This document shows, piece by piece, positions 1-40,740 of a DNA stretch of 40,740 nt; the stretch's first letter is position 1, and each line of letters opens with the position of its first letter. The DNA is from a virus. The position numbers and the translations under genes are program-made. The stretch covers positions 1-40,740 of IMG/VR virus record IMGVR_UViG_3300034355_000374. One strand, 5' to 3'. The notes below the pieces were generated by a model. That model worked only from the letters and a program-made list of their open reading frames with translations, had not been told where the DNA came from and ran no database searches.

Positions 1-127
1 TACGTCAGCGGGTCGCTGTGATCAGTGAGCACGCAAGCCTGCCTCAAGTCTTCGGAAGCGATGTGAATGCCGTGCGACATGACCTTATCCAAGATAACAA
101 GTTTGGTCATGTAGTTAGGCTCTTTCA
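1..127. repeat. Terminal direct repeat, left copy (contig closure overlap)
   Basis: These bases are identical to 40614-40740. The overlap lies inside a single open reading frame, which continues correctly when the ends are joined. That argues for a circular assembly graph rather than a natural repeat. The length equals a k-mer size often used as the maximum in short-read assembly. Confidence 0.95.
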
Positions 128-281
128 GATAGCACTCGACGAAGGTTTTGGTCTCTGGGTTATAGAAGGCCAAGGGGTGAACCTTTGGCACACTAAGTTG
201 AGTCGCCAAGACTTTCGCCTTCTCCTCCATCTCTGCACGCTGCTCGTCGCTTAAACCGGTTATTTCTTTTGTCTCTGCCAT
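1..281 (-). CDS. Tail assembly chaperone, 5' part (continues across the contig junction)
   Basis: This is the N-terminal part of a 126-residue protein that runs off the left edge and continues at 40613 on the circular genome, ending at 40514. The ATG at 279-281 lies 13 bases after the tail tube stop and opens a protein starting MAETKEITGLSDEQRAEMEE. The shorter start at position 110 would drop 57 residues that are in frame and charged-helical like the rest. The gene lies between tail tube and tape measure, the standard place of lambda gpG/gpGT-type chaperones that coat the tape measure during tail assembly. The protein is small and acidic and has no motif recognisable on its own. The assignment comes from position and from the -1 frameshift signal at its 3' end. 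Confidence 0.8.
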   Translation of the reverse strand, partial: MAETKEITGLSDEQRAEMEEKAKVLATQLSVPKVHPLAFYNPETKTFVECYLKEPNYMTKLVILDKVMSHGIHIASEDLRQACVLTDHSDPLT

Positions 282-294
282 AGGTGCGAGTGTT

Positions 295-714
295 TTATTT
301 GTTCTCGATGAGTCCGACGGTTAAGGCCACTTTCACTTTGATGGATGTGTCACCTTGTGCAACGGTCACAGGATCCGCAGCGATGCTGCAAGCCTTTAAG
401 ACCAGCACAGAAGGGACGATACCGCCGCCGTTGAAAGTAATGGGCACATCGAACAAGGGTATCAAATACGGGTCCCTGTTTGGAGCTGCATTCACGATAC
501 CTAACCAGGTCTCGTAATACATCTCAATGCTTGCGGATTGTTCTACTTTACCGAACCCGCGCGATACGGCATAAGGACCAGCCCCGTAATTATTAACGAC
601 CTCTTGCTTGCGGTCCCACTCAACGGAAGTAATTCCGATTACAGGATTGCCAAACAAGATCAAGTTAATGTTGTTCCAGGAGTGCGCTATGCCGTTTATT
701 AATGGTGTTGCCAT
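295..714 (-). CDS. Tail tube protein
   Basis: This 139-residue protein lies directly after the sheath gene (5-base gap) and before the chaperone and tape measure, the position of the tail tube (major tail subunit) in myoviruses. The sequence starts MATPLINGIAHSW and is rich in beta-prone stretches, with a GITSVEW segment at about residues 27-33 followed by a charged connector. This pattern is common in the tube families of Mu-like and Bacteroidota phages. Length is normal for a tube subunit (about 110-170). It would polymerise into the rigid tube inside the sheath. No cysteine-rich or enzymatic motif is visible. Assignment is by gene order and general character, not by a signature motif. Confidence 0.8.
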   Translation of the reverse strand: MATPLINGIAHSWNNINLILFGNPVIGITSVEWDRKQEVVNNYGAGPYAVSRGFGKVEQSASIEMYYETWLGIVNAAPNRDPYLIPLFDVPITFNGGGIVPSVLVLKACSIAADPVTVAQGDTSIKVKVALTVGLIENK

Positions 715-719
715 GTTGA

Positions 720-2264
720 TTAAGCGATTGAAGGTTTGAAGCCGATAGGAATTTCAATGAAGCGCGCCACGCCATTAACAACGAGATCCACACCGATAAC
801 AAGCTTGCTGGTTGCCAGCACATCTTGTGTAGGGCTTATCTGCACTCGTCGTGCGGATAGTTCAAAATCTCGAAGCATCTGATCAAGCGCTGCATCTCCG
901 ATGTTTTCCAACATCGTGATGGTGTTGTCGCTCATCGTGCCGTCGGCGTTTAATGTGATTGGCGAGTTCAGTTTAGGCAGATAGGCAGCCCGTAGATTAC
1001 GGATGGCCTTATCAATGGTCCGGTTGTTTTCGACATAAGCATAGTCGCTTGTTGGTACTACGGCTGTGTGCGAATCGTTCCAATATGAGCCGGATAAACC
1101 GACATGTTTTTTCAAGAAAATGAAGCGCTTGTCGTTCAAAGCTTCAAGCAGTCCGTCCGTTACTGCGGAGTTTGAAAACAGGGTTCCGTTTGAGAACGCC
1201 AGTACTTCAAGTTCTGTGCCGTTGGACATGTTGAACTTCTCGACCCATGCGATCGATTCGCTGACTTTAGCAAAAGCGATTGTGCCAAGGCAAGCGCCCA
1301 GGGCGGAGATTGATTTCCCGCATGTGATGTACAAGAAGTTTCCGTGTGCCCCGCCATCCTGCGCAAGAACCATTGAACACTTTTCGTCGGTTAAATTGTT
1401 CAGCGTGAAGATCGCAGACAAATCGGAAACGCCTGTCGTGTGCCCTCCGATAATGGCAGAAATGTTCTTACCTGCATCGTCCAGCGTTTTACACACCGTG
1501 TCGATAGCGGTTACGTCAGCGGCTGCAATGGCAGTAGCGTCTTTGTAAACTGCGATTTGACGAACGGCGCCTTCGGCATAGTTCTGGATTGAACTGATCT
1601 CGGTATAAGTGTACGGAGAAGGCACAACGTAGAATCCTACATAAAGCACGCCTTTCGGTTGGATGCGGAAAAATTCAGAAATATGATAGTGCCAAACCGC
1701 TTGCAGAGATGCAACTCCCGGTACTACGTTTTGCGTCCATGTTCCGGCCATGGTACCCGTGATAGTAGCAGTGTATGGCGTGCCCGTGTTCAAGTAAACG
1801 CCGAATTTCTTCGGCGCTGTAATCGTAAGCGTCGCTGTGTTAAACGACGCGGTGTATCCGTGGTTCACGGTACCGGCGTTAATTGCAGCGGTGATACTTG
1901 CACCCAGCAAAGCGATAGTTGAGTCGCCCGCTACTTTGGTGTAAGTACACAAGGTCGTAGACTGCGCGGCGCCTGTTGCGTCCAGATCAGCTACTTTGAT
2001 GGTGATGGTATCTCCGGTAGAACCCGCAGTACCGATCAAGAAAGTAGCAGTGGCCGCCGTAGCGTCTGCGCAGGTGTCCAAGATACCTGCGTTAACCGCA
2101 TCTTGCACACTATACAGAGCCTTCACGCGATTCGATGTAGTCCAACCTGACGGCAGGTTTCCATCCGCGGTATAGAACAGCATCCCGCTGATATGGTCGT
2201 TAGAAGGCAGTGGTCGACCTAAGCCGCCCTGCCCCTTGATAAACGTAAGATTAGGTAAAGACAT
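720..2264 (-). CDS. Contractile tail sheath protein (DUF2586-like)
   Basis: This 514-residue protein carries the hallmarks of the DUF2586 sheath group of Bacteroidota and Mu-like phages. The N-terminus (MSLPNLTFIKGQGGLGRPLP) matches the glycine-rich start of that group. The middle holds a sheath core (PKGVLYVGFYVVP; AIIGGHTTG), and the C-terminal region has the conserved NNRTIDKAIRNLRAAYLPKL stretch and ends in a beta-strand handshake segment (GVARFIEIPIGFKPSIA). Residues of about 65-185 are Thr/Ala/Gly-rich and repetitive, and look like an inserted Ig-like surface domain. The sheath contracts to drive the tube through the outer membrane. The tube gene follows immediately, supporting the call. 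Confidence 0.9.
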   Translation of the reverse strand: MSLPNLTFIKGQGGLGRPLPSNDHISGMLFYTADGNLPSGWTTSNRVKALYSVQDAVNAGILDTCADATAATATFLIGTAGSTGDTITIKVADLDATGAAQSTTLCTYTKVAGDSTIALLGASITAAINAGTVNHGYTASFNTATLTITAPKKFGVYLNTGTPYTATITGTMAGTWTQNVVPGVASLQAVWHYHISEFFRIQPKGVLYVGFYVVPSPYTYTEISSIQNYAEGAVRQIAVYKDATAIAAADVTAIDTVCKTLDDAGKNISAIIGGHTTGVSDLSAIFTLNNLTDEKCSMVLAQDGGAHGNFLYITCGKSISALGACLGTIAFAKVSESIAWVEKFNMSNGTELEVLAFSNGTLFSNSAVTDGLLEALNDKRFIFLKKHVGLSGSYWNDSHTAVVPTSDYAYVENNRTIDKAIRNLRAAYLPKLNSPITLNADGTMSDNTITMLENIGDAALDQMLRDFELSARRVQISPTQDVLATSKLVIGVDLVVNGVARFIEIPIGFKPSIA

Positions 2265-18974: not shown

Positions 18975-21407
18975 TTAGTTATTTAAAAATTCGAATTTTC
19001 CGGGTATTTCTTCTCTGAAAAAACCTCTCCTTTGCCGTCCGTAGGCAACCCCAAATCTTTTCTGTTCTTGGCTCTCTTTCCACCCGATCATGCGAAGCGC
19101 ATTCCGTATAATTCCAGCCGACTTCTCGTCGATAGCATCTCTGCGCCCCAGGCATTCGTACCATATCTCGTACACGCATACGCGCATGCGGTAAGCCCCT
19201 TCAACCTCTCCTGATGGGTTGTTTTGCAACCAAATGAAGCGGTCGTATTGCTGCCATTCGTAGAAGCTGACCGGTACTTTAATATCCAGGTAGTTACGTA
19301 TAAGCTCCGTCCATGGGTGTTCTTCGGTATGCCTGCGCTGTACTTCTACGGCCTCCAATAACATCGCTTCGGACAACCACAACGCTTCACCGGTTTGGTA
19401 GTAATGCACCGCCTCCGCCCATATCTGATCAATCTCTTCGGCACTCAAGTCTTTAAGTACGTCCTTCTCTGGCAGAGTCTCGTGTACGACCACCGGCCAA
19501 TATCGCCTGTTACCTGTCGGGTCCTTCAAGAAGTCCCAACGGTTGGTGGTGCCTACGATAATGCACTGCCTTGGGAAGTTCTCTACCTTATGCCCGTAGG
19601 CCACACGATACTTGTCCTCCCGCTTACTAATGAAGTGCTTTACGGCTTCGATTTCACTTTTAGCCATACCTGACAACTCCGGGCACTCGATGATCCATGA
19701 ACCCTGTATCTGTTCATAGGCTTTGGTCTCGTTGCGGTGCAGCAAGTTAAAAGAGAAGCTATCGGAGAACCAGCGCCCGCCCATGCGCATGAACAGCGAC
19801 GACTTCTTGAGCCCCTGATCGCCGACCAACACAAGCATATTATCGAACTTGACGCCGGGCTCCATCACGCGGGCGACGGCTGCTACAAGTGTCTTGCGAG
19901 TTACCGTCCTGACGTAGTCGGTCTGCGAAGCTCCGAGATATTCGGTAAGCAGTTGCTCAAGGCGGTGTTCGCCATCCCACGACAAGCCGTTGAGGTAATC
20001 GCGCACCGGATGAAAGCTATTACGTTGTGCCCATACCAGCATCGCGTCTCTGGTCTTCGCCAGGTGACTGATACCATAAGCCTTCTCAAGATAATGTCGG
20101 ATGTTGGCGTCGTCCATATCAACCAGTCTGCGGTTGTGCCATCCGACCTTGCGCCAGGGTAAATCTTTCACGGCCACTTCACACTTCTCGAAGTCATCGT
20201 AAGCAATGCGACCGCGGAAGTAAGGGTCGTTCTCAAGCACCAAACTGATATTATCAATGGTGCCGTACACATTACCATGGCGGTCAACGTCCAGTCTTTC
20301 CTTCCAGTCATCGCTTCCGGTCTCGTCTTCTTCGAGCTCGCCCATCTTGAAGTCCTCGCGCGCCATGGCATTACGCTCATCTACCAGCAAGCGCTTCACC
20401 TTCGCATCTCTCGAGATGAAGTCCTGCATTGCCAGGTAACTGGGCAACTTAGACACCGGAGTGCCGTCCTTGGCCTCTTCATCCTTGGCACCGAACAAGT
20501 GAGTGCGCACCAGGTCGAAGGCGTTGCAAAGCTTACCGCTGATCGGATCCGTACCGTGGTGGCTGTATGCGAACTTATCATCGTAGATAACCAAACCGCC
20601 TGCGGTGGATCCTTCCAGATAGGTGTACCGCCCATTGTCGCAGGGCGTGTATATTTTGCCCAGGAAGACTTCAAGCGCTTCGTGGATGTCATACGTCCTG
20701 CAGAACGCGCCAATCGTTCCGGGCTTCTCTAAAGGGTCTCCTTGATGGGCGGCGCTCTTTTTCAGCAACTCACTGACTTTTGATGACACAGGCCACTGCG
20801 AGCAGTCGGTCCAGTCGCGGTAAGTCGAAAGCACGTCATCCGCACTCAACCAGTCCCCGTCTTGGAAGTGGTACTCATATTCTCCGTCCTTGGATGTAGA
20901 CGGCCAATACATTAAGCGCTCTGGTTGGAAGGTGGTCGGGTCGAAGAGCTCGATGTCGAGATTACCAGCTACACGTCGGGCGATAGCCTCGTATTCAGTC
21001 GGGTTGACCTCTCGGTCAAGCGGCATAATAAGCCGCAGGCGGGGCTTCTCGGGCGTGTGCTTGTGCGTGCTATACACCACAGCAGCATCTCCGTACAACA
21101 TCGTGAAGTCCTCCCAAAAGCCCGGATGTGCGAAGTCAAGGTCTAACGTGATAATCTGTCTTGACATCACACTTCGGGCTTTACGTCTGCCGCCATGGAT
21201 AACACCGCCAACGAAGCCGCCGATGTCTTTAATCTCGTCCTGTCTGGACTTCTTGGCGCTGTTGTACTCTGAAACGGTCTCCGCTGTTACATGCGTCTTG
21301 GATAGCTTGACGACTATCTCGGACCAGTTAAGCTCCTTAACCTTCCAGCTCGTATCTTTTCTGTGCTTGCCAATGGAGAGGGCCAGCAACCCGTCGTGTT
21401 TGATCAT
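18975..21407 (-). CDS. Primase plus VapE-type replicative helicase
   Basis: The gene encodes 810 residues. The N-terminal part (about 1-200) looks like an archaeo-eukaryotic-type primase-polymerase: QIITLDLDFAH (D89 and D91), VVYSTHKHTPEKPRLRL (the SxH motif, about 113-115) and later acidic residues. The C-terminal part is a virulence-associated E-like superfamily 3 helicase: GDQGLKKSS as Walker A (about 527-535), SWIIECPELSGM as Walker B, and IVGTTNRWDFLKDPTGNRRY containing sensor and arginine finger. A linker around 250-320 has a possible zinc or regulatory segment. It probably primes and unwinds at the origin, replacing separate DnaG and DnaB. It overlaps the next upstream gene by 4 bases. 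Confidence 0.92.
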   Translation of the reverse strand: MIKHDGLLALSIGKHRKDTSWKVKELNWSEIVVKLSKTHVTAETVSEYNSAKKSRQDEIKDIGGFVGGVIHGGRRKARSVMSRQIITLDLDFAHPGFWEDFTMLYGDAAVVYSTHKHTPEKPRLRLIMPLDREVNPTEYEAIARRVAGNLDIELFDPTTFQPERLMYWPSTSKDGEYEYHFQDGDWLSADDVLSTYRDWTDCSQWPVSSKVSELLKKSAAHQGDPLEKPGTIGAFCRTYDIHEALEVFLGKIYTPCDNGRYTYLEGSTAGGLVIYDDKFAYSHHGTDPISGKLCNAFDLVRTHLFGAKDEEAKDGTPVSKLPSYLAMQDFISRDAKVKRLLVDERNAMAREDFKMGELEEDETGSDDWKERLDVDRHGNVYGTIDNISLVLENDPYFRGRIAYDDFEKCEVAVKDLPWRKVGWHNRRLVDMDDANIRHYLEKAYGISHLAKTRDAMLVWAQRNSFHPVRDYLNGLSWDGEHRLEQLLTEYLGASQTDYVRTVTRKTLVAAVARVMEPGVKFDNMLVLVGDQGLKKSSLFMRMGGRWFSDSFSFNLLHRNETKAYEQIQGSWIIECPELSGMAKSEIEAVKHFISKREDKYRVAYGHKVENFPRQCIIVGTTNRWDFLKDPTGNRRYWPVVVHETLPEKDVLKDLSAEEIDQIWAEAVHYYQTGEALWLSEAMLLEAVEVQRRHTEEHPWTELIRNYLDIKVPVSFYEWQQYDRFIWLQNNPSGEVEGAYRMRVCVYEIWYECLGRRDAIDEKSAGIIRNALRMIGWKESQEQKRFGVAYGRQRRGFFREEIPGKFEFLNN

Positions 21408-23626: not shown

Positions 23627-25558
23627 TTAATCTTGTTTATGATAAAAAAATGATACGTCTGTGTCTGCGGGTAAGTCCAGTCCGGGCGCCCATGGTATCG
23701 GCGCACCCATTAAAGCGCTTACCTTTTCTGGGTCTGTTATGCCGTCGGCGTCGATTACAACTTCATCATGTACGGACATCGCGATGTAGGTCCTCTCCAA
23801 TCGAAGCATAGCTTCTGCAAGGCAGTCTCTCGCGATGGCCTGAACGATGTTCTCCACCAACTTACCGCCGTAGGTCTCAACGTGCTGCCAGCGTTTAGTT
23901 GTTTGGTCCATGCCCTCATATCGCAGTTGATAACTGCCGAACTTGCCCGGCACCGCTTTGGCTTTGTAGTAAGCCAGCTCTCTGCCACTTGGCAACTTCA
24001 CGAACAGGATCCCGCGAGAAGTTTTGAACCGCACCCGCCCACAGCGCGTTGAGGTCTCTATACCATTCTGTACGGCTTCGATGGCTGCGGTCTCTACATC
24101 TTTCCACAGTGCTACGATACGAGGACTTGAGCGACGCCATGCGCTTACAAGACCGGGTAACTCTTCTTCAGTCAAACCCTTGTCCAAAGCGCCCATCTGG
24201 ATAAGTGCACCGACTCCACCTTGATACCCAAGTGCGAGCTCTGCCACTTTACCCCGCTGCCTCATGGACTTATCAATCGTTTCCAGCGGTATGCGGAACA
24301 TTTGAGAAGCGGAAGCTTTGTAGATGTCACCACCGGAAGCGAAGACATCCATGCGCCAAGTCTCTTTTGCCAGCCAAGCGATTACACGGGCTTCAATGGC
24401 TTTGAAGTCGGAACAGATTAGCTTACGCCCAGGTGAAGCGGTTAAAGCTGTACGGATAAGTTGACTTAAAACGTCGGTCACTTGGCCCCACAACAATTCC
24501 ACCATCTCCAAGTCTCCACGTCTCACTATCTCGCGCGCCTCCTCCAACATCTTCATGCTGTTCTTGGCGAGGTTCTGCACTTGCACACCGCGACCGGCCC
24601 AGCGGCCTGTGCGGTTGGCTCCGTAGAATTGAAGCAGCCCGCGAATGCGTGAGTCCTCACAAACCATCTCAAGCATAGTGGCGTACTTCTTAATGCTGGT
24701 CTTGCCGAGCTCTTGCCGGATATCAAGCACACGACGGATAACGTCAGAGTCCGCGGCTTTAAGAAGTTCTGGGAGCGTCTCTTTGTTCAAGGTCGTAACC
24801 TCTTGGTCCATAGCAGCGCTTAACCACTCCTTCAACTGCGCCCCGCTGTTCGGATTATCGAGTCCGGTCAACTCCTCTGCTTCGCGCATTAATTTCGCGG
24901 AGTAGTCCAGATAGATTTGCAGGGCGTTCTTAACGAACATCTTATCAAGTCGAATGCCATAGTCGTTGATGTCCTGGTCAAGCACCCATAAACGCTTTTC
25001 GTTCTCGGGTATGTTGAACCACTTAATGCTGTCACGAATAGCGGTTTCCACACGCACGTCCTGCTTGCAGTAATCAACGAACTGCTGCCACTTCTCCGCG
25101 TCGTGTTCAGGCAAGTTGCGTGTGCGCATGCCGTTAGCATTACTCGGCTTGCAGGGCACCGAGAAGTAGCGGATAAGTGCTTTACCCGACTTGTCTTTTT
25201 GCTCCTTGATATCAAGCACTCTGGCAACGGTGTCGAGGTCCATAGGTAGTCCAAGCATGGAGGCTTTTACCATTGTGCATTCCCACTGATCTGCAGGCAG
25301 GTCGATACCGAAGTGCTTGCTTAAACACACCCTTTCAAAGTTGGCGTTATATGCTGTTTTCAGATAGGAAGGTTCGGTAAGCATCCATTTGAACGCATCG
25401 GAGGTAAGGTCTTCACCGCTCACTTGCACAGGCCTGTCGTCTATGCGATACGCGATAACAAGCACTTCGAAGTTTGGAGATTCGACGTACTTATACACCC
25501 CGCACTTCTTCAAGTCGTAGTCGCTATAAGTCTCTATGTCGATGGATAGTGTAGGCAT
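23627..25558 (-). CDS. polA: Family A DNA polymerase with 3'-5' exonuclease
   Basis: The gene encodes 643 residues. The N-terminus starts with the exonuclease motif MPTLSIDIETYSDYDL (D7, E9), followed by a C-terminal exo segment (FVDYCKQDVRVETAI). The polymerase domain shows motif A near 384 (LICSDFKAIEARVIAWL), motif B near 430 (RQRGKVAELALGYQGG) and motif C near 596 (MSVHDEVVI). The length is typical of short phage family A polymerases lacking a 5' nuclease. The adjacent sliding-clamp-like gene overlaps by one base at 25558. It would be the replicative polymerase of the phage. Confidence 0.95.
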   Translation of the reverse strand: MPTLSIDIETYSDYDLKKCGVYKYVESPNFEVLVIAYRIDDRPVQVSGEDLTSDAFKWMLTEPSYLKTAYNANFERVCLSKHFGIDLPADQWECTMVKASMLGLPMDLDTVARVLDIKEQKDKSGKALIRYFSVPCKPSNANGMRTRNLPEHDAEKWQQFVDYCKQDVRVETAIRDSIKWFNIPENEKRLWVLDQDINDYGIRLDKMFVKNALQIYLDYSAKLMREAEELTGLDNPNSGAQLKEWLSAAMDQEVTTLNKETLPELLKAADSDVIRRVLDIRQELGKTSIKKYATMLEMVCEDSRIRGLLQFYGANRTGRWAGRGVQVQNLAKNSMKMLEEAREIVRRGDLEMVELLWGQVTDVLSQLIRTALTASPGRKLICSDFKAIEARVIAWLAKETWRMDVFASGGDIYKASASQMFRIPLETIDKSMRQRGKVAELALGYQGGVGALIQMGALDKGLTEEELPGLVSAWRRSSPRIVALWKDVETAAIEAVQNGIETSTRCGRVRFKTSRGILFVKLPSGRELAYYKAKAVPGKFGSYQLRYEGMDQTTKRWQHVETYGGKLVENIVQAIARDCLAEAMLRLERTYIAMSVHDEVVIDADGITDPEKVSALMGAPIPWAPGLDLPADTDVSFFYHKQD

Positions 25559-30394: not shown

Positions 30395-31504
30395 TTACAA
30401 CTTCCCAAACTCCTTATCCATCTGGTCGTCGGTAAACTTTCCGTACACAGCGAAAGTGCTGGCTTTCTTAATACCCATGGCCTTCATCACGAACTCCGTC
30501 CGCACGCTGCTGTTAATGCTGCTCACGGCAAAGGTGTGACGTGCGACATGGGTAGTCAACTTGAACAGCAAGCCCATATCTTGCCCAATTTCCCGCAGTG
30601 CTTTGTTGTACTTGTCATAGGAACCGATCGGGCGCTCTAAGGCTTGCAGGGCCTCTACGAGGGCAGGATAAAGCGGTATGTAATGCTGGTTCTTTGTCTT
30701 CACGTCGGATAGGTAGTATCTTCCGTCCTTGATTTCATGCTTGCGAAAATTTAGCAAGTCGCTGGCTCTGCAACCCAACTTGGTTTGGAGCACAAACCAC
30801 CGGCTCGCATTACGCCAAACCGGATTCAGCGAATCGTAATAGGTTTTTAACTGACTGATCTGATCAGTGCTTAAAAAGAAGCGGTCCGGGTTTTTATACG
30901 GCGGCATTTTATACTGCCCTTTCTGCGATCCAATCGGAAAAGCGAAGTCGATGTCTTCACGAGCCAAGCCAAGCGCAGATTTTAAAAACTTGAAAACCGT
31001 CCAGATGGTTGTTGATGCGTACCCCTGCGCGATCAACTCCTGATGGAAATGCGCGCACCATTTAGGCGTCACCTCCACCACAGCGAGCTTACTGTACTTC
31101 GGGCTGAAATTAACGCGGATTATGGCCCTGTATCGACGTTCTGTGTTCGGTGCAAGTTTGGTCACTTCAATGTACCTATCCATGTAATCAATAAGGGCCT
31201 GCGCTTTGGCGTACTTATTTTCCAGCGCAAGCTTCAACAGATCCGCAGAAAGTGAACCATACTTGCGCAGGACCTCTAATATCGAAGCCTCCGCGTCTTG
31301 ATAGGCTTTGCGGATTTGTTGGTTTTTATATTCGTGTAACTTATCCTGGCGTTTGACGTATCGGAAATCCTGCGCGGATTTATCAAAGTTTTCTTCACTA
31401 CATTTCACGCCGGTGGATTTCAGATATCTTTTTCTCTGAAATATTACCTGGATGTAAACGGTTTTCCGGCACATCACAGTCAGTGAGTAGTTAAGGTGCA
31501 ACAT
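30395..31504 (-). CDS. int: Tyrosine recombinase integrase
   Basis: The gene encodes 369 residues from the ATG at 31502-31504. Frame continues to an earlier ATG at 31552, but that codon lies inside a -7 box and the region carries repeats. The N-terminus is an arm-binding strand domain (VMCRKTVYIQVIFQRKRYLK), followed by a SAM-like core-binding domain (about 90-190). The catalytic domain has LGCRASDLLNF (Arg), a Lys strand (LSDVKTKNQHYIPL), HVARHTF (His-x-x-Arg) and FAVYGKF (Tyr). The second catalytic histidine (normally GH) reads GI in VMKAMGIKKAST. It catalyses integration at the neighbouring attachment site. Confidence 0.9.
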   Translation of the reverse strand: MLHLNYSLTVMCRKTVYIQVIFQRKRYLKSTGVKCSEENFDKSAQDFRYVKRQDKLHEYKNQQIRKAYQDAEASILEVLRKYGSLSADLLKLALENKYAKAQALIDYMDRYIEVTKLAPNTERRYRAIIRVNFSPKYSKLAVVEVTPKWCAHFHQELIAQGYASTTIWTVFKFLKSALGLAREDIDFAFPIGSQKGQYKMPPYKNPDRFFLSTDQISQLKTYYDSLNPVWRNASRWFVLQTKLGCRASDLLNFRKHEIKDGRYYLSDVKTKNQHYIPLYPALVEALQALERPIGSYDKYNKALREIGQDMGLLFKLTTHVARHTFAVSSINSSVRTEFVMKAMGIKKASTFAVYGKFTDDQMDKEFGKL

Positions 31505-31545
31505 CGGGTACAGCAATAGGTGCAACAAATTTAACCACATCTGCG

Positions 31546-31577
31546 CAAACATTGGTCAGAAAGTGGACAGATTCAAA
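31546..31577 (-). promoter_or_regulatory. Candidate integrase promoter (TTTG, 20 bp, AATGTTTG)
   Basis: Minus-strand TTTG at 31574-31577 and AATGTTTG at 31546-31553 (one mismatch to TAnnTTTG), 20 bases apart. The predicted RNA start near 31539 lies downstream of the ATG at 31552, so the start at 31504 is preferred. Arm-like repeats lie on both sides, which would allow autoregulation. Confidence 0.55.
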
Positions 31578-36619: not shown

Positions 36620-37106
36620 GGGTTATATTTTCGTTTTCCAAATCAATCTGCTGTGTAGGTGTGAGCGTTCCGACAACAGGTGCAACGGTCGGCGCTGCGG
36701 TTCCGGTACCAGTGGACAACGTCAACACGTGCGTGTGTGCGTTGAACTTACTTACCAGATCATTCACTTTATTTTCAAGGTTGTTTAACTTGGTCACGAG
36801 GTCTGCAACCTTCACAAGTCCGTCGAATTGACCGCCCCGTAAAATGATTTTTTCCACACCGGAAAACATCGCGATATACGGTTCATCTGTCAAGGCCACG
36901 ATAACGGTGCTATCCGCTTCGGGAAGGACCAGAACGCCATCGTCAACGGCGGCCATCAAGCGCACCGGTATTTCTACGGGATGCTCTCCGAGCAGTTCAA
37001 CCACAGCACTTCGATTTGCTTCATCCACGGACACGACAACAGCATCCGCGTATAACTTCGCGGTCTTGGTTAGCTGTTGTAGAAGTCTGCGGATCTCGGC
37101 ACTCAT
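36612..37106 (-). CDS. Baseplate spike protein, gpV-like
   Basis: The gene encodes 164 residues. The N-terminal half is an OB-fold-like domain (KLYADAVVVSVDEANRSAVV, ELLGEHPVEIPVRLMAAV, DDGVLVLPEADSTVIVAL). The C-terminal half contains a coiled coil (LVTKLNNLENKVNDLVSKFN) and a short AHTHVLTL motif (HTH, a metal-binding apex pattern seen in spikes). It is shorter than P2 gpV but has the same order. The spike pierces the outer membrane. It overlaps the hub gene by 4 bases. Confidence 0.82.
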   Translation of the reverse strand: MSAEIRRLLQQLTKTAKLYADAVVVSVDEANRSAVVELLGEHPVEIPVRLMAAVDDGVLVLPEADSTVIVALTDEPYIAMFSGVEKIILRGGQFDGLVKVADLVTKLNNLENKVNDLVSKFNAHTHVLTLSTGTGTAAPTVAPVVGTLTPTQQIDLENENITHG

Positions 37107-38293
37107 GTATTTATTTTGTAATCAAGTTCAATAATCTGTCGCAACCCGTTCTGGCTTTCGTCGTCGACTTGCTTCACTTTGTAAACGCCGTTATATTCCG
37201 GAAGCCTTGGGTGTATCAGCTTCACGTTGTCGCCATGCTTTACACGGGGTATGCCGAAGGTTCTAAAGGTGCCTTTCAGTCCGTTGTAATAGTATTTTTT
37301 TAGTTGATTATAAGCAAGTTCTCCGAGCTCGTCTATACTTTTCGCACCGGGAAAAAAGAAAGTGCGTCTTTCACCTTCGACGTTCTCCGGGGCGTGCCCG
37401 TCGGATACATCCGTTACGGTGTATTCACTTTCTCCGGCCGCAGGGTTTGGGAGCATCTCAACAAGGGCTTGAATGCGCTTTTTTTTCTTTTTCGTCTGCC
37501 CGTCTTGAGTGGTGCCGGAGCCATCAACGGTTATGGTATTGTGCGCGATGGCAGACATCTTGATATCATCCTTTCTTCTGTATTCCAGATCGCTTTCGAT
37601 AATGTTTTTCTCGAAGTGGAACACGTGCGTCTGCGCCTCGTCTTCAATATAGATCAGTGCGCCACAGCGCAGCTCGTCCCCACGAAAATAACTTTCGAGC
37701 CCCTGATCTCTTTGCAACCTCTGTAACACTTGCGCTGGTGTTTCGTGGCCTATGGTGAACGGTCCTATCTTGGTTGTTTGAAGCAGATTAACTGTGAAGC
37801 CTGTTCCTTCTGTGATGTATTGCAGTATGCTTTCCAACGTATCAGAAGCACCGAAGTGTTTAGGCTTTAAAGGCTTCTGCATGAGTTTAAACATGTTGTC
37901 CTTCAACTCGAATTCAACCGATAAACCGGGTTTCACTTTAAAGATAAAGCCTTGAAAAACGTCGTACATTTCGGTAATCGTTGCGCCTCTTTCATCCTGA
38001 TAGCTGTAACCCCACTTTATTGTCACCGAATCGCCACGCATGAAAAGCGGAACGGATCCAAACCCGCCAGCGTTTATATTTTTACCCGACAAGGGTTGAG
38101 GCTTTCCAAACGCATCGCGGTAATACAGGTTTTTCGGAAGTACAAGCGATCCGGAGTCGCTTAGATTCTGCCAGGTTGAAGATGCGGAATACGACGTCAG
38201 GAAAGTAAGCGTTAGTACTTTGTTGCGGTCCGGGTAATCGTTACTCGGAGTCTGCGTAATGGTTACGATATGTCGGACTCGGAGAAACCTCAT
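37103..38293 (-). CDS. Tail hub protein, gpD/gp27-like
   Basis: The gene encodes 396 residues. N-terminal beta domain (LTLTFLTSYSASSTWQNLSD, SGSLVLPKNLYYRDAFGKPQ, RGDSVTIKWGYSYQDERGAT) followed by ELKDNMFKLMQKPLKPKHFG, a helix with SILQYITEGTGFTVN, and a C-terminal beta part (RRTFFFPGAKSIDELGELAY, VKHGDNVKLIHPRLPEYNGVYKV in segments). This order matches the tail hub proteins of Mu-like and P2-like phages (late control gpD type). A lysine/arginine stretch (KKKKKR) is present near residue 270. It forms the platform of the spike. It is one base past the start of the DUF6046-like gene. Confidence 0.82.
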   Translation of the reverse strand: MRFLRVRHIVTITQTPSNDYPDRNKVLTLTFLTSYSASSTWQNLSDSGSLVLPKNLYYRDAFGKPQPLSGKNINAGGFGSVPLFMRGDSVTIKWGYSYQDERGATITEMYDVFQGFIFKVKPGLSVEFELKDNMFKLMQKPLKPKHFGASDTLESILQYITEGTGFTVNLLQTTKIGPFTIGHETPAQVLQRLQRDQGLESYFRGDELRCGALIYIEDEAQTHVFHFEKNIIESDLEYRRKDDIKMSAIAHNTITVDGSGTTQDGQTKKKKKRIQALVEMLPNPAAGESEYTVTDVSDGHAPENVEGERRTFFFPGAKSIDELGELAYNQLKKYYYNGLKGTFRTFGIPRVKHGDNVKLIHPRLPEYNGVYKVKQVDDESQNGLRQIIELDYKINT

Positions 38294-38804: not shown

Positions 38805-40346
38805 TTAATCAGCGGTTACTTGGAAGTCATTTAATGCGCCGGTAAGCGCTTGCACAACAACGTCGTGAATGCGAGACGCCCCTTCTTTTACATTGCTTAC
38901 ATAGACCTTGCTTTCTTTTATGAGGTTGTCCACCTGCACATTGATAGTTACGTTCTTGCTGCCTATGGCTTTTGATTCACCGCGTAATTTCTTGCCTTTT
39001 GCAGATGCGGAGTCCGCGCCTTTAGGTACGGCATTCCGGTCATACAAGCTCGTACTTGTCAACTGATCCAGCGCAGTCTTTTTGAAAAGTAAATCTTGCA
39101 GTCCGGGTGCGTTGTTGGTAACCTTACCTCTTACAAGCATATTCTCGCGAAGACGTTTTTCCGTCGTAGAGTTGATTTCCTTCATCTGCTCGTCAATCTT
39201 AACCTTCTCCCGCTTTTGGAATTCCGCCATCGTAAGCCCCGACGATTGGAAGTCTGTCGCATAGGTCTGCTTAAACGCATCGATGCGGCTATCGTTCTGC
39301 GCCCGCAGCATCTCGTTTTGCGTCCGCAGAGCGTCGTCCATGGATGAAGAGTAAATGCCAACTGCTGCGGCAAGCGCCCCTATCGCAGATATGACTAATC
39401 CAATCGGTCCGAGTGACATACTCATCGCGAGTGAGAAGGACCGCACAACGGTGATAACTTCTCGCAGACCCATAAGTGACTTATAAGCCAACCACAAACC
39501 GCCCACCACTTTAGCCGTTGTGACGACGGCATCGCGATTTCTCTTCAACCACTCCCAGCCTTGGCGCAAATAGTCTATCGCATTCGATAATCCGGTTATC
39601 ACGCTATCAATAGCAGGCTTTAAATCATTGAACATTGTCACGGCCAAATTGTAAGCCTTGTCGCCGAGGTTTGAGACTTGCACAGAGGTAGTTCCCGCCA
39701 TGGCTTCCAGACCTCCTGCATAAAGCCCGCCTTCTTCGTGAGCCTTGCGTAAAGCGTCGGTTATTGCCGAATAACTGATAACCTGGTCTTGGTTGTTCTT
39801 ATCGACTTTAGTGCCCGCTTTCTCAAGGAGCGCGTATAGATTAACTCCGGCGTAAGCGAATTGCTTAATGTCCATGGCCGTAGCTTCTCCGGTATTGGCA
39901 ATTTGTTGAAGGTTGACGGTCATCCGTTGCAGCTCGTCATTGCCTCCACCTGTCGCGGCGATGGCGTTCGCCAGGTTAAGCATATCCTCCCGAGCTCGGT
40001 CCGCCCCTATGCTTGCAGAGATAAGCAGCTTCTGCCCTTGCAAGAGTGTAGAGAAGTCGAACGGCGTTTTAGTGGCGTCCTCCATCGTGTTACTAATCAC
40101 ACGACCTGCTTCATCTGCAGACTTTAAAAGTGTCGTAAGCCCTACCCGGGCATTTTCGACTTGCATACCCGCTTGGCCGATCTTGTAACCTAAAGCGGTA
40201 ACGCTTGCAGCGGCGAATGCGCGTTGAATAGAATTGCCCAGATTGCCCATCGTGCTGTCCAGCATACGGGCTTTGGCATCTGCGCTGGCAAGCCCTGCGG
40301 ATAACCGGTCTTTGAGGGAGAGGATGTATTCAACGACTTTACTCAT
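38805..40346 (-). CDS. Tape measure protein
   Basis: The gene encodes 513 residues. The N-terminal third has the tape-measure domain pattern (LQGQKLLISASIGADRAREDM, in pieces, then NLANAIAATGGGNDELQRMT and NLQQIANTGEATAMDIKQFA). Residues of about 275-345 hold hydrophobic spans (GLWLAYKSLMG; LGPIGLVISAIGALAAAVGI). The rest is helical. At about 0.15 nm per residue the tail would be roughly 75 nm, short for a myovirus. The start codon follows the end of the frameshifted chaperone extension (stop TAG, then ATG). It sets tail length and is ejected during infection. Confidence 0.88.
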   Translation of the reverse strand: MSKVVEYILSLKDRLSAGLASADAKARMLDSTMGNLGNSIQRAFAAASVTALGYKIGQAGMQVENARVGLTTLLKSADEAGRVISNTMEDATKTPFDFSTLLQGQKLLISASIGADRAREDMLNLANAIAATGGGNDELQRMTVNLQQIANTGEATAMDIKQFAYAGVNLYALLEKAGTKVDKNNQDQVISYSAITDALRKAHEEGGLYAGGLEAMAGTTSVQVSNLGDKAYNLAVTMFNDLKPAIDSVITGLSNAIDYLRQGWEWLKRNRDAVVTTAKVVGGLWLAYKSLMGLREVITVVRSFSLAMSMSLGPIGLVISAIGALAAAVGIYSSSMDDALRTQNEMLRAQNDSRIDAFKQTYATDFQSSGLTMAEFQKREKVKIDEQMKEINSTTEKRLRENMLVRGKVTNNAPGLQDLLFKKTALDQLTSTSLYDRNAVPKGADSASAKGKKLRGESKAIGSKNVTINVQVDNLIKESKVYVSNVKEGASRIHDVVVQALTGALNDFQVTAD

Positions 40347-40517
40347 CTATTCATATTTTACGCTGTGTACAATTCGGAGGTAGTATTTCGTTTGCGCCCA
40401 GGCTTTGTGCCATTCGTCTTCTTCGAGTTCTTCCGGGTTTAAATGCAAACAGCCCCGGATTAGAGCGTTACGCTGCTCCGCCCCGAGGCTCTCTGTTCCT
40501 ATGCTGCTGCGTTCTAT
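40347..40517 (-). CDS. Tail assembly chaperone -1 frameshift extension
   Basis: In the -1 frame a 56-codon reading frame without a usable ATG runs from the slippery site to TAG at 40347-40349, directly abutting the tape measure ATG. It encodes SSIGTESLGAEQRNALIRGC and later EELEEDEWHKAWAQTKYYLR. Ribosomes that slip at A-AAA-AAA (40517-40525) would fuse it to the upstream 126 residues, giving about 182 residues, like lambda gpGT. This extension has no other explanation, lies where the T domain belongs, and is easily left unannotated because it lacks a start. Confidence 0.85.
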   Translation of the reverse strand: MERSSIGTESLGAEQRNALIRGCLHLNPEELEEDEWHKAWAQTKYYLRIVHSVKYE

Positions 40518-40740
40518 TTTTTTTTAAACTGATCTACGTATGTGTCAATCATTGATTTAGCGATGTAATCCAGCACTCCAAGTTTAAACGGATCAGATTG
40601 AGGGGCGTCCGAGTACGTCAGCGGGTCGCTGTGATCAGTGAGCACGCAAGCCTGCCTCAAGTCTTCGGAAGCGATGTGAATGCCGTGCGACATGACCTTA
40701 TCCAAGATAACAAGTTTGGTCATGTAGTTAGGCTCTTTCA
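40514..40740 (-). CDS. Tail assembly chaperone, 3' part with slippery site
   Basis: Right-hand part of the gene that starts at 281 on the circular genome; 40614-40740 duplicates 1-127. The last codons read GAT CAG TTT AAA AAA AAA TAG, with nine A residues on the mRNA (40517-40525) after TTT, so an A AAA AAA slippery heptamer lies directly in front of the stop codon. The product is acidic (ends VDQFKKK) and 126 residues long. It is the short form of the chaperone pair that loads the tape measure. Confidence 0.82.
   Translation of the reverse strand, partial: KEPNYMTKLVILDKVMSHGIHIASEDLRQACVLTDHSDPLTYSDAPQSDPFKLGVLDYIAKSMIDTYVDQFKKK
40614..40740. repeat. Terminal direct repeat, right copy
   Basis: Identical to 1-127. 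Joining the two copies gives a circle of 40,613 bases and restores one open reading frame through the junction. Confidence 0.95.

Follow-up and report, generated by a model that had tools for sequence, protein, structure and literature searches.

Tail genes around the junction of a circular phage genome

The window analysed here, i.e., the whole stretch of 40,740 nt, is the IMG/VR virus record IMGVR_UViG_3300034355_000374. Its first 127 bases are identical to its last 127, showing that the record is circular (40,613 bp). The features discussed below are:

1..281, minus strand: 5' part of the putative tail assembly chaperone ORF, with its ATG at 281-279; the ORF crosses the circular junction
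295..714, minus strand: probable tail tube protein, whose gene precedes that of the chaperone
720..2264, minus strand: tail sheath protein
38805..40346, minus strand: tape measure protein, 513 aa
40347..40517, minus strand: -1 extension, 56 codons and TAG, free of ATG, predicted to form a helical hairpin
40446..40495, minus strand: RNA hairpin, separated from the slip site by about 21 nt on the 3' side, inside a fold of -29.9 kcal/mol; relatives show covariation in this register
40514..40516, minus strand: TAG that stops the zero frame, immediately after the A9 run
40514..40740, minus strand: 3' part of the chaperone ORF, ending TTT AAA AAA AAA TAG
40517..40525, minus strand: A9 run, whose best -1 heptamer, A AAA AAA (40523-40517), lies directly before the stop
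40614..40740: duplicate of 1-127 (end repeat)

The minus-strand order is therefore sheath, probable tube, chaperone and tape measure, and the placement from tube to tape measure is the same in annotated isolates. The sheath protein was matched by phrog_907 (5.6e-36) and DUF2586 (4.2e-44), the probable tube protein by phrog_4579 (tail protein, 8.8e-13) and phrog_9206 (major head protein, 5.4e-10), and the tape measure protein by PHROG tape measure families (to 9.7e-14); the match of the latter with Pfam TMP_3 (9.4e-8) is under Pfam's own cut-off.

A previous reading of the sequence alone (the sequence-only reading) had claimed that the chaperone gene is split by the contig ends, that it finishes with an A AAA AAA heptamer against its stop, and that an ATG-less -1 frame of 56 codons continues to the start of the tape measure gene. 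All three claims hold. Joined across the 127-bp end repeat, the ORF has 126 codons, the last being CAG TTT AAA AAA AAA TAG, and its 126-aa product is confirmed by L001 (3231-3608). A second, separately named IMG/VR contig, which may come from the same sample, matches the circularised window with no mismatches over 13,317 bp and covers both the junction and the A9 run. Hence, the junction is genuine and no by-product of the contig ends. The heptamer has the X XXY YYZ form in the correct register, and the A9 run is the sole run of at least nine A or T in the window. The second longest is an eight-A run (T8 on the plus strand, 37479-37486) within a baseplate hub ORF (37103-38293). The -1 frame opens with ATA (40517-40515) and closes with TAG (40349-40347), immediately followed by the tape measure ATG (40346-40344). 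The first possible start codon within it is a TTG at the 24th codon. Reading through the slip site would give a fusion of 182 residues (126 + 56) with the junction KKK-IER.

The extension in related phages

We collected loci from viral contigs by alignments of the tube, tape measure and extension, added isolates and dropped duplicates. This left 73 distinct loci carrying the same -1 extension, which runs up to the tape measure gene in the relatives as well. Searches of viral contigs and phage records with single chaperone sequences either had no hit or hit only a contig with the sequence of the window itself.

A 56-codon open frame is weak evidence by itself, and what is decisive at the sequence level is its conservation across relatives. 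The sequence-only reading had proposed to look for such conservation, and the extension is indeed kept as a protein without scattered stops: it is under purifying selection (pooled pN/pS of 0.24, 131 pairs from the 73 loci), and this also holds for codons 1-16 (about 0.37), which precede most of the internal start codons. Only one of the 73 loci has an open zero frame past the stop, and none has an open +1 frame. Sixteen of the extensions, among which that of the window, have no ATG. Given this constraint, the closed alternative frames and the ATG-free members, the extension is most simply read as being translated from the chaperone frame.

The nearest cultured phages by sheath similarity are Winoviridae of Flavobacterium and Winogradskyella; Bacteroides phages are farther. 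The Winoviridae have a related sheath, the same gene order and the same layout, as found in the Flavobacterium phages FPSV-S1, lotta8-1 and fF4 and in the Winogradskyella phage Peternella_1. Unlike the window, they carry A AAA AAG with one further codon before the stop (G GGA AAG in fF4), and FPSV-S1 and lotta8-1 lack the strong downstream hairpin. In all four, the chaperone is annotated as a hypothetical protein and the fusion is absent from the annotation, in line with the earlier expectation that ordinary annotation would miss it. We found no description of this frameshift in Winoviridae in the literature searched, which includes few subscription journals. In the Bacteroides phage BS-TP1 (L043), a -1 extension seemingly lies between the chaperone and the tape measure, and its candidate slip site, CCT GGG AAG TAA, is no standard heptamer.

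Protein family and fold

Scanned against PHROG and Pfam, none of the members matched a meaningful family or one that would name this protein, and we detected no sequence relation between the chaperone of the window and known chaperone families. AlphaFold models built from the alignments were confident, with a pLDDT of 88.7 for the chaperone and of 87.6 for the extension, the latter predicted as two helices. With the chaperone fold, the best Foldseek match had an E of 0.026. The best PDB matches of a second comparison, all under Z 8, included 3fgx (Z 6.9) and 5ir0 (Z 5.3), with YqbN (3klu, Z 4.8) third and 2ob9, the tail assembly chaperone of HK97, fifth (Z 3.8). YqbN is itself a relative of tail chaperones. 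The predicted fold is partly similar to YqbN and the HK97 protein, at very low sequence identity and at Z scores below proof of kinship, so the matches agree with such kinship without proving it. A fragment of the lotta8-1 extension was among the closest predicted folds. The chaperone role is thus putative, and is suggested by position and layout together with these weak matches to known tail chaperones.

The slip site across relatives

The slippery run is kept in 71 of the 73 loci, as an exact A9 or as A AAA AAG, as the sequence-only reading would have it. The sites read NNN AAA AAA AAA stop in 52 loci, NTA AAA AAA AA(T/C) stop in 11, and A AAA AAG in eight, whereas two loci, the distant L044 and L086, have no recognisable slip site. 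After clustering at 70% identity these classes comprise 26, 8, 8 and 2 clusters, respectively. Pure homopolymer sites always have nine A's in either register, never eight or ten. Seven of the eight A AAA AAG loci hold just six A's. The first codon is AAA in all 52 phase-0 A9 sites and in one of the eight A AAA AAG sites. Such runs are avoided elsewhere in these loci: by a first-order Markov estimate, we expected about 55 A/T runs of nine bases and about 39 of at least ten, and observed 14 and 2. Codon bias is not the cause of the A9, since AAA makes up 69% of the lysine codons of long ORFs on average across loci, and 49% in the window. The stop is mostly TAG, a preference to be expected if it doubles as coding sequence for Ile-Glu/Asp/Ala in the -1 frame.

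One subgroup with the second A9 register (L087, L088, L076, L083, L085, L096 and L098) has GAG TTA AAA AAA AAT stop, or GAA CTA AAA AAA AAT stop in L096. Its extensions are longer (about 63-73 residues) and its downstream structure is weaker. Separately, TTC GCA AAA AAG TAG is common to L003 (8767-8779) and L082, which belong to different extension clusters; the slip site may have been exchanged or have converged.

RNA structure downstream of the slip site

The 70 nt starting at the stop codon are strongly structured, unlike their surroundings. The mean z was -2.76 ± 0.34 across 49 representatives, with 59% under -2, whereas other 70-nt windows within 270 nt had mean z from -0.8 to +0.4, those upstream being near neutral. 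A hairpin of -12 kcal/mol or lower was found in 41 of 55 sequences, typically from +19 to +72, and about a quarter had no strong one. In the window and in most members with a strong hairpin, the stem starts about 18-21 nt past the slip site. Some subgroups have an additional hairpin 3-7 nt from the stop.

Covariation was analysed in the main register, with 14 sequences picked for that register: both partners change in 10 of the 14 pairs, and 81.6% of the cells are paired. The covarying hairpin belongs to a large subgroup of which the window is a member. None of 500 shuffles was as good on the main scores, and sliding the partner also abolished the signal. RNAalifold gave no consensus fold for 30 sequences of mixed registers, as the hairpin register differs between subgroups; the signal is seen only inside one register. 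No conserved pseudoknot partner stood out for the spacer or the loop. Downstream structural stimulators, which are frequent at frameshift sites but dispensable, are usually 5-9 nt from the slip site, with an upper range of 11-14 nt (PMC5009743), and the spacing of about 20 nt found here exceeds this range.

Ribosomal frameshifting and its alternatives

Frameshifting in tail chaperone genes is textbook knowledge, well known in other phages. We consider it probable that the gene is a frameshifted tail assembly chaperone of the lambda gpG/gpGT type, most likely expressed by -1 ribosomal frameshifting. Compared with lambda (Levin 1993; Xu, Hendrix and Duda 2004, via PMC5009743 and PMC2628397), both systems place the gene between the major tail protein and the tape measure, shift to -1 close to where the first ORF ends, and have an ATG-less extension that reaches the tape measure gene, with a minor longer product expected. 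They differ in the slip site (an exact A9 directly before the stop here, G GGA AAG in lambda), in the downstream hairpin and in the contractile tail of the phage studied here. The sequence-only reading had claimed a programmed -1 frameshift of this type. The layout, gene order, sheath and tape measure stand; the ribosomal level is likely and unproven, because A9 is also a classic RNA polymerase slippage site.

Under ribosomal frameshifting, the majority of ribosomes would terminate at the TAG, which yields the 126-residue chaperone. The minority would slip back one base on A AAA AAA, perhaps aided by the waiting stop codon and, in many members, by the downstream RNA structure, and would continue to the start of the tape measure gene, producing the 182-residue fusion with the small two-helix domain last. 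By analogy with lambda, the short form might coat the tape measure protein and the extension might recruit tube subunits, the two products presumably being made in a fixed ratio.

RNA polymerase slippage would yield the same protein: some transcripts would carry A10 and have chaperone and extension in one frame. As the main source of the fusion we regard it as rather unlikely, but it is a serious competitor or partner of the ribosomal route, and several observations speak for it. A 9A run conserved among homologs has been described as a mark of purposeful slippage (Baranov et al. 2005, PMC1088944), and 63 of the 73 loci keep exactly nine A's, 52 in one register and 11 in the other, but eight relatives have A AAA AAG. 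The A9 length matches the RNA-DNA hybrid of 9-10 bp (PMC5009743). The preference for AAA as first codon in phase-0 A9 sites points the same way, as does the avoidance of long runs elsewhere, the latter being only as good as the Markov expectation. Known A9 slippage genes, e.g., Thermus thermophilus dnaX and those of IS elements (PMC1088944), likewise keep exactly nine A's in homologs and avoid them elsewhere. In contrast with these genes, the downstream hairpin and the A AAA AAG relatives point here to the ribosome. The relatives with six A's retain the extension, and one isolate, fF4, has G GGA AAG. The structure lies 3' of the run, in RNA that is not yet made when the polymerase slips, whereas the documented hairpin of RNA polymerase slippage sits 5' of it (PMC5009743), where we found near-neutral folding. 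These observations favour the ribosome, and we judge ribosomal -1 frameshifting the likelier main route. It leaves the nine A's unexplained: A AAA AAA needs seven, yet nine are kept in two registers. The two routes could act together, since both yield KKK-IER. It is possible, if doubtful, that the chaperone ratio is set by polymerase slippage on a threshold-length A9, alone or together with ribosomal frameshifting aided by the far hairpin, with some relatives making the same protein from a purely ribosomal A AAA AAG site.

That the extension is a separate small protein, made by reinitiation or from an internal start codon, is very improbable. Three loci (L005, L010 and L012) do have an ATGA overlapping the stop, the 16th codon is an ATG in 25 of 73, and the lotta8-1 annotation has a short CDS from an internal start. 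However, this would account neither for the ATG-free extensions, nor for the constraint on codons 1-16, nor for the strictly kept slip site. Errors are common in homopolymer runs and at the ends of contigs, but an assembly or sequencing error, or the decay of one intact gene, is refuted by the relatives and scarcely conceivable: the same A9 occurs in dozens of diverged contigs, cultured isolates frameshift at non-homopolymer sites, and a second contig record confirms the junction.

The new elements are an undescribed chaperone family and how widely it occurs, the exact-A9 rule, and the covarying hairpin about 20 nt downstream. They extend the tail chaperone frameshift to a large phage group, most of it uncultured, through a family missed in the annotation of isolates. 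The presence of exact-A9 loci beside A AAA AAG relatives provides a natural test of ribosomal versus polymerase slippage leading to the same product.

Host and gene content

The nearest cultured relatives suggest a Bacteroidota host for the phage of the window. Bacteroidota, the hosts of the cultured relatives, have ribosomes that ignore Shine-Dalgarno sequences (PMC9976891), so that the Shine-Dalgarno-like stimulator of other systems is probably unavailable here. A search of genome contigs for relatives found none, and thus no host prophage. Neither the Rfam nor the tRNA scan had a hit in the window. Strong PHROG matches were obtained for an integrase (30395-31552), a helicase/primase (18975-21407) and a DNA polymerase (23627-25558). 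Hence, the phage looks temperate, with replication genes of its own.
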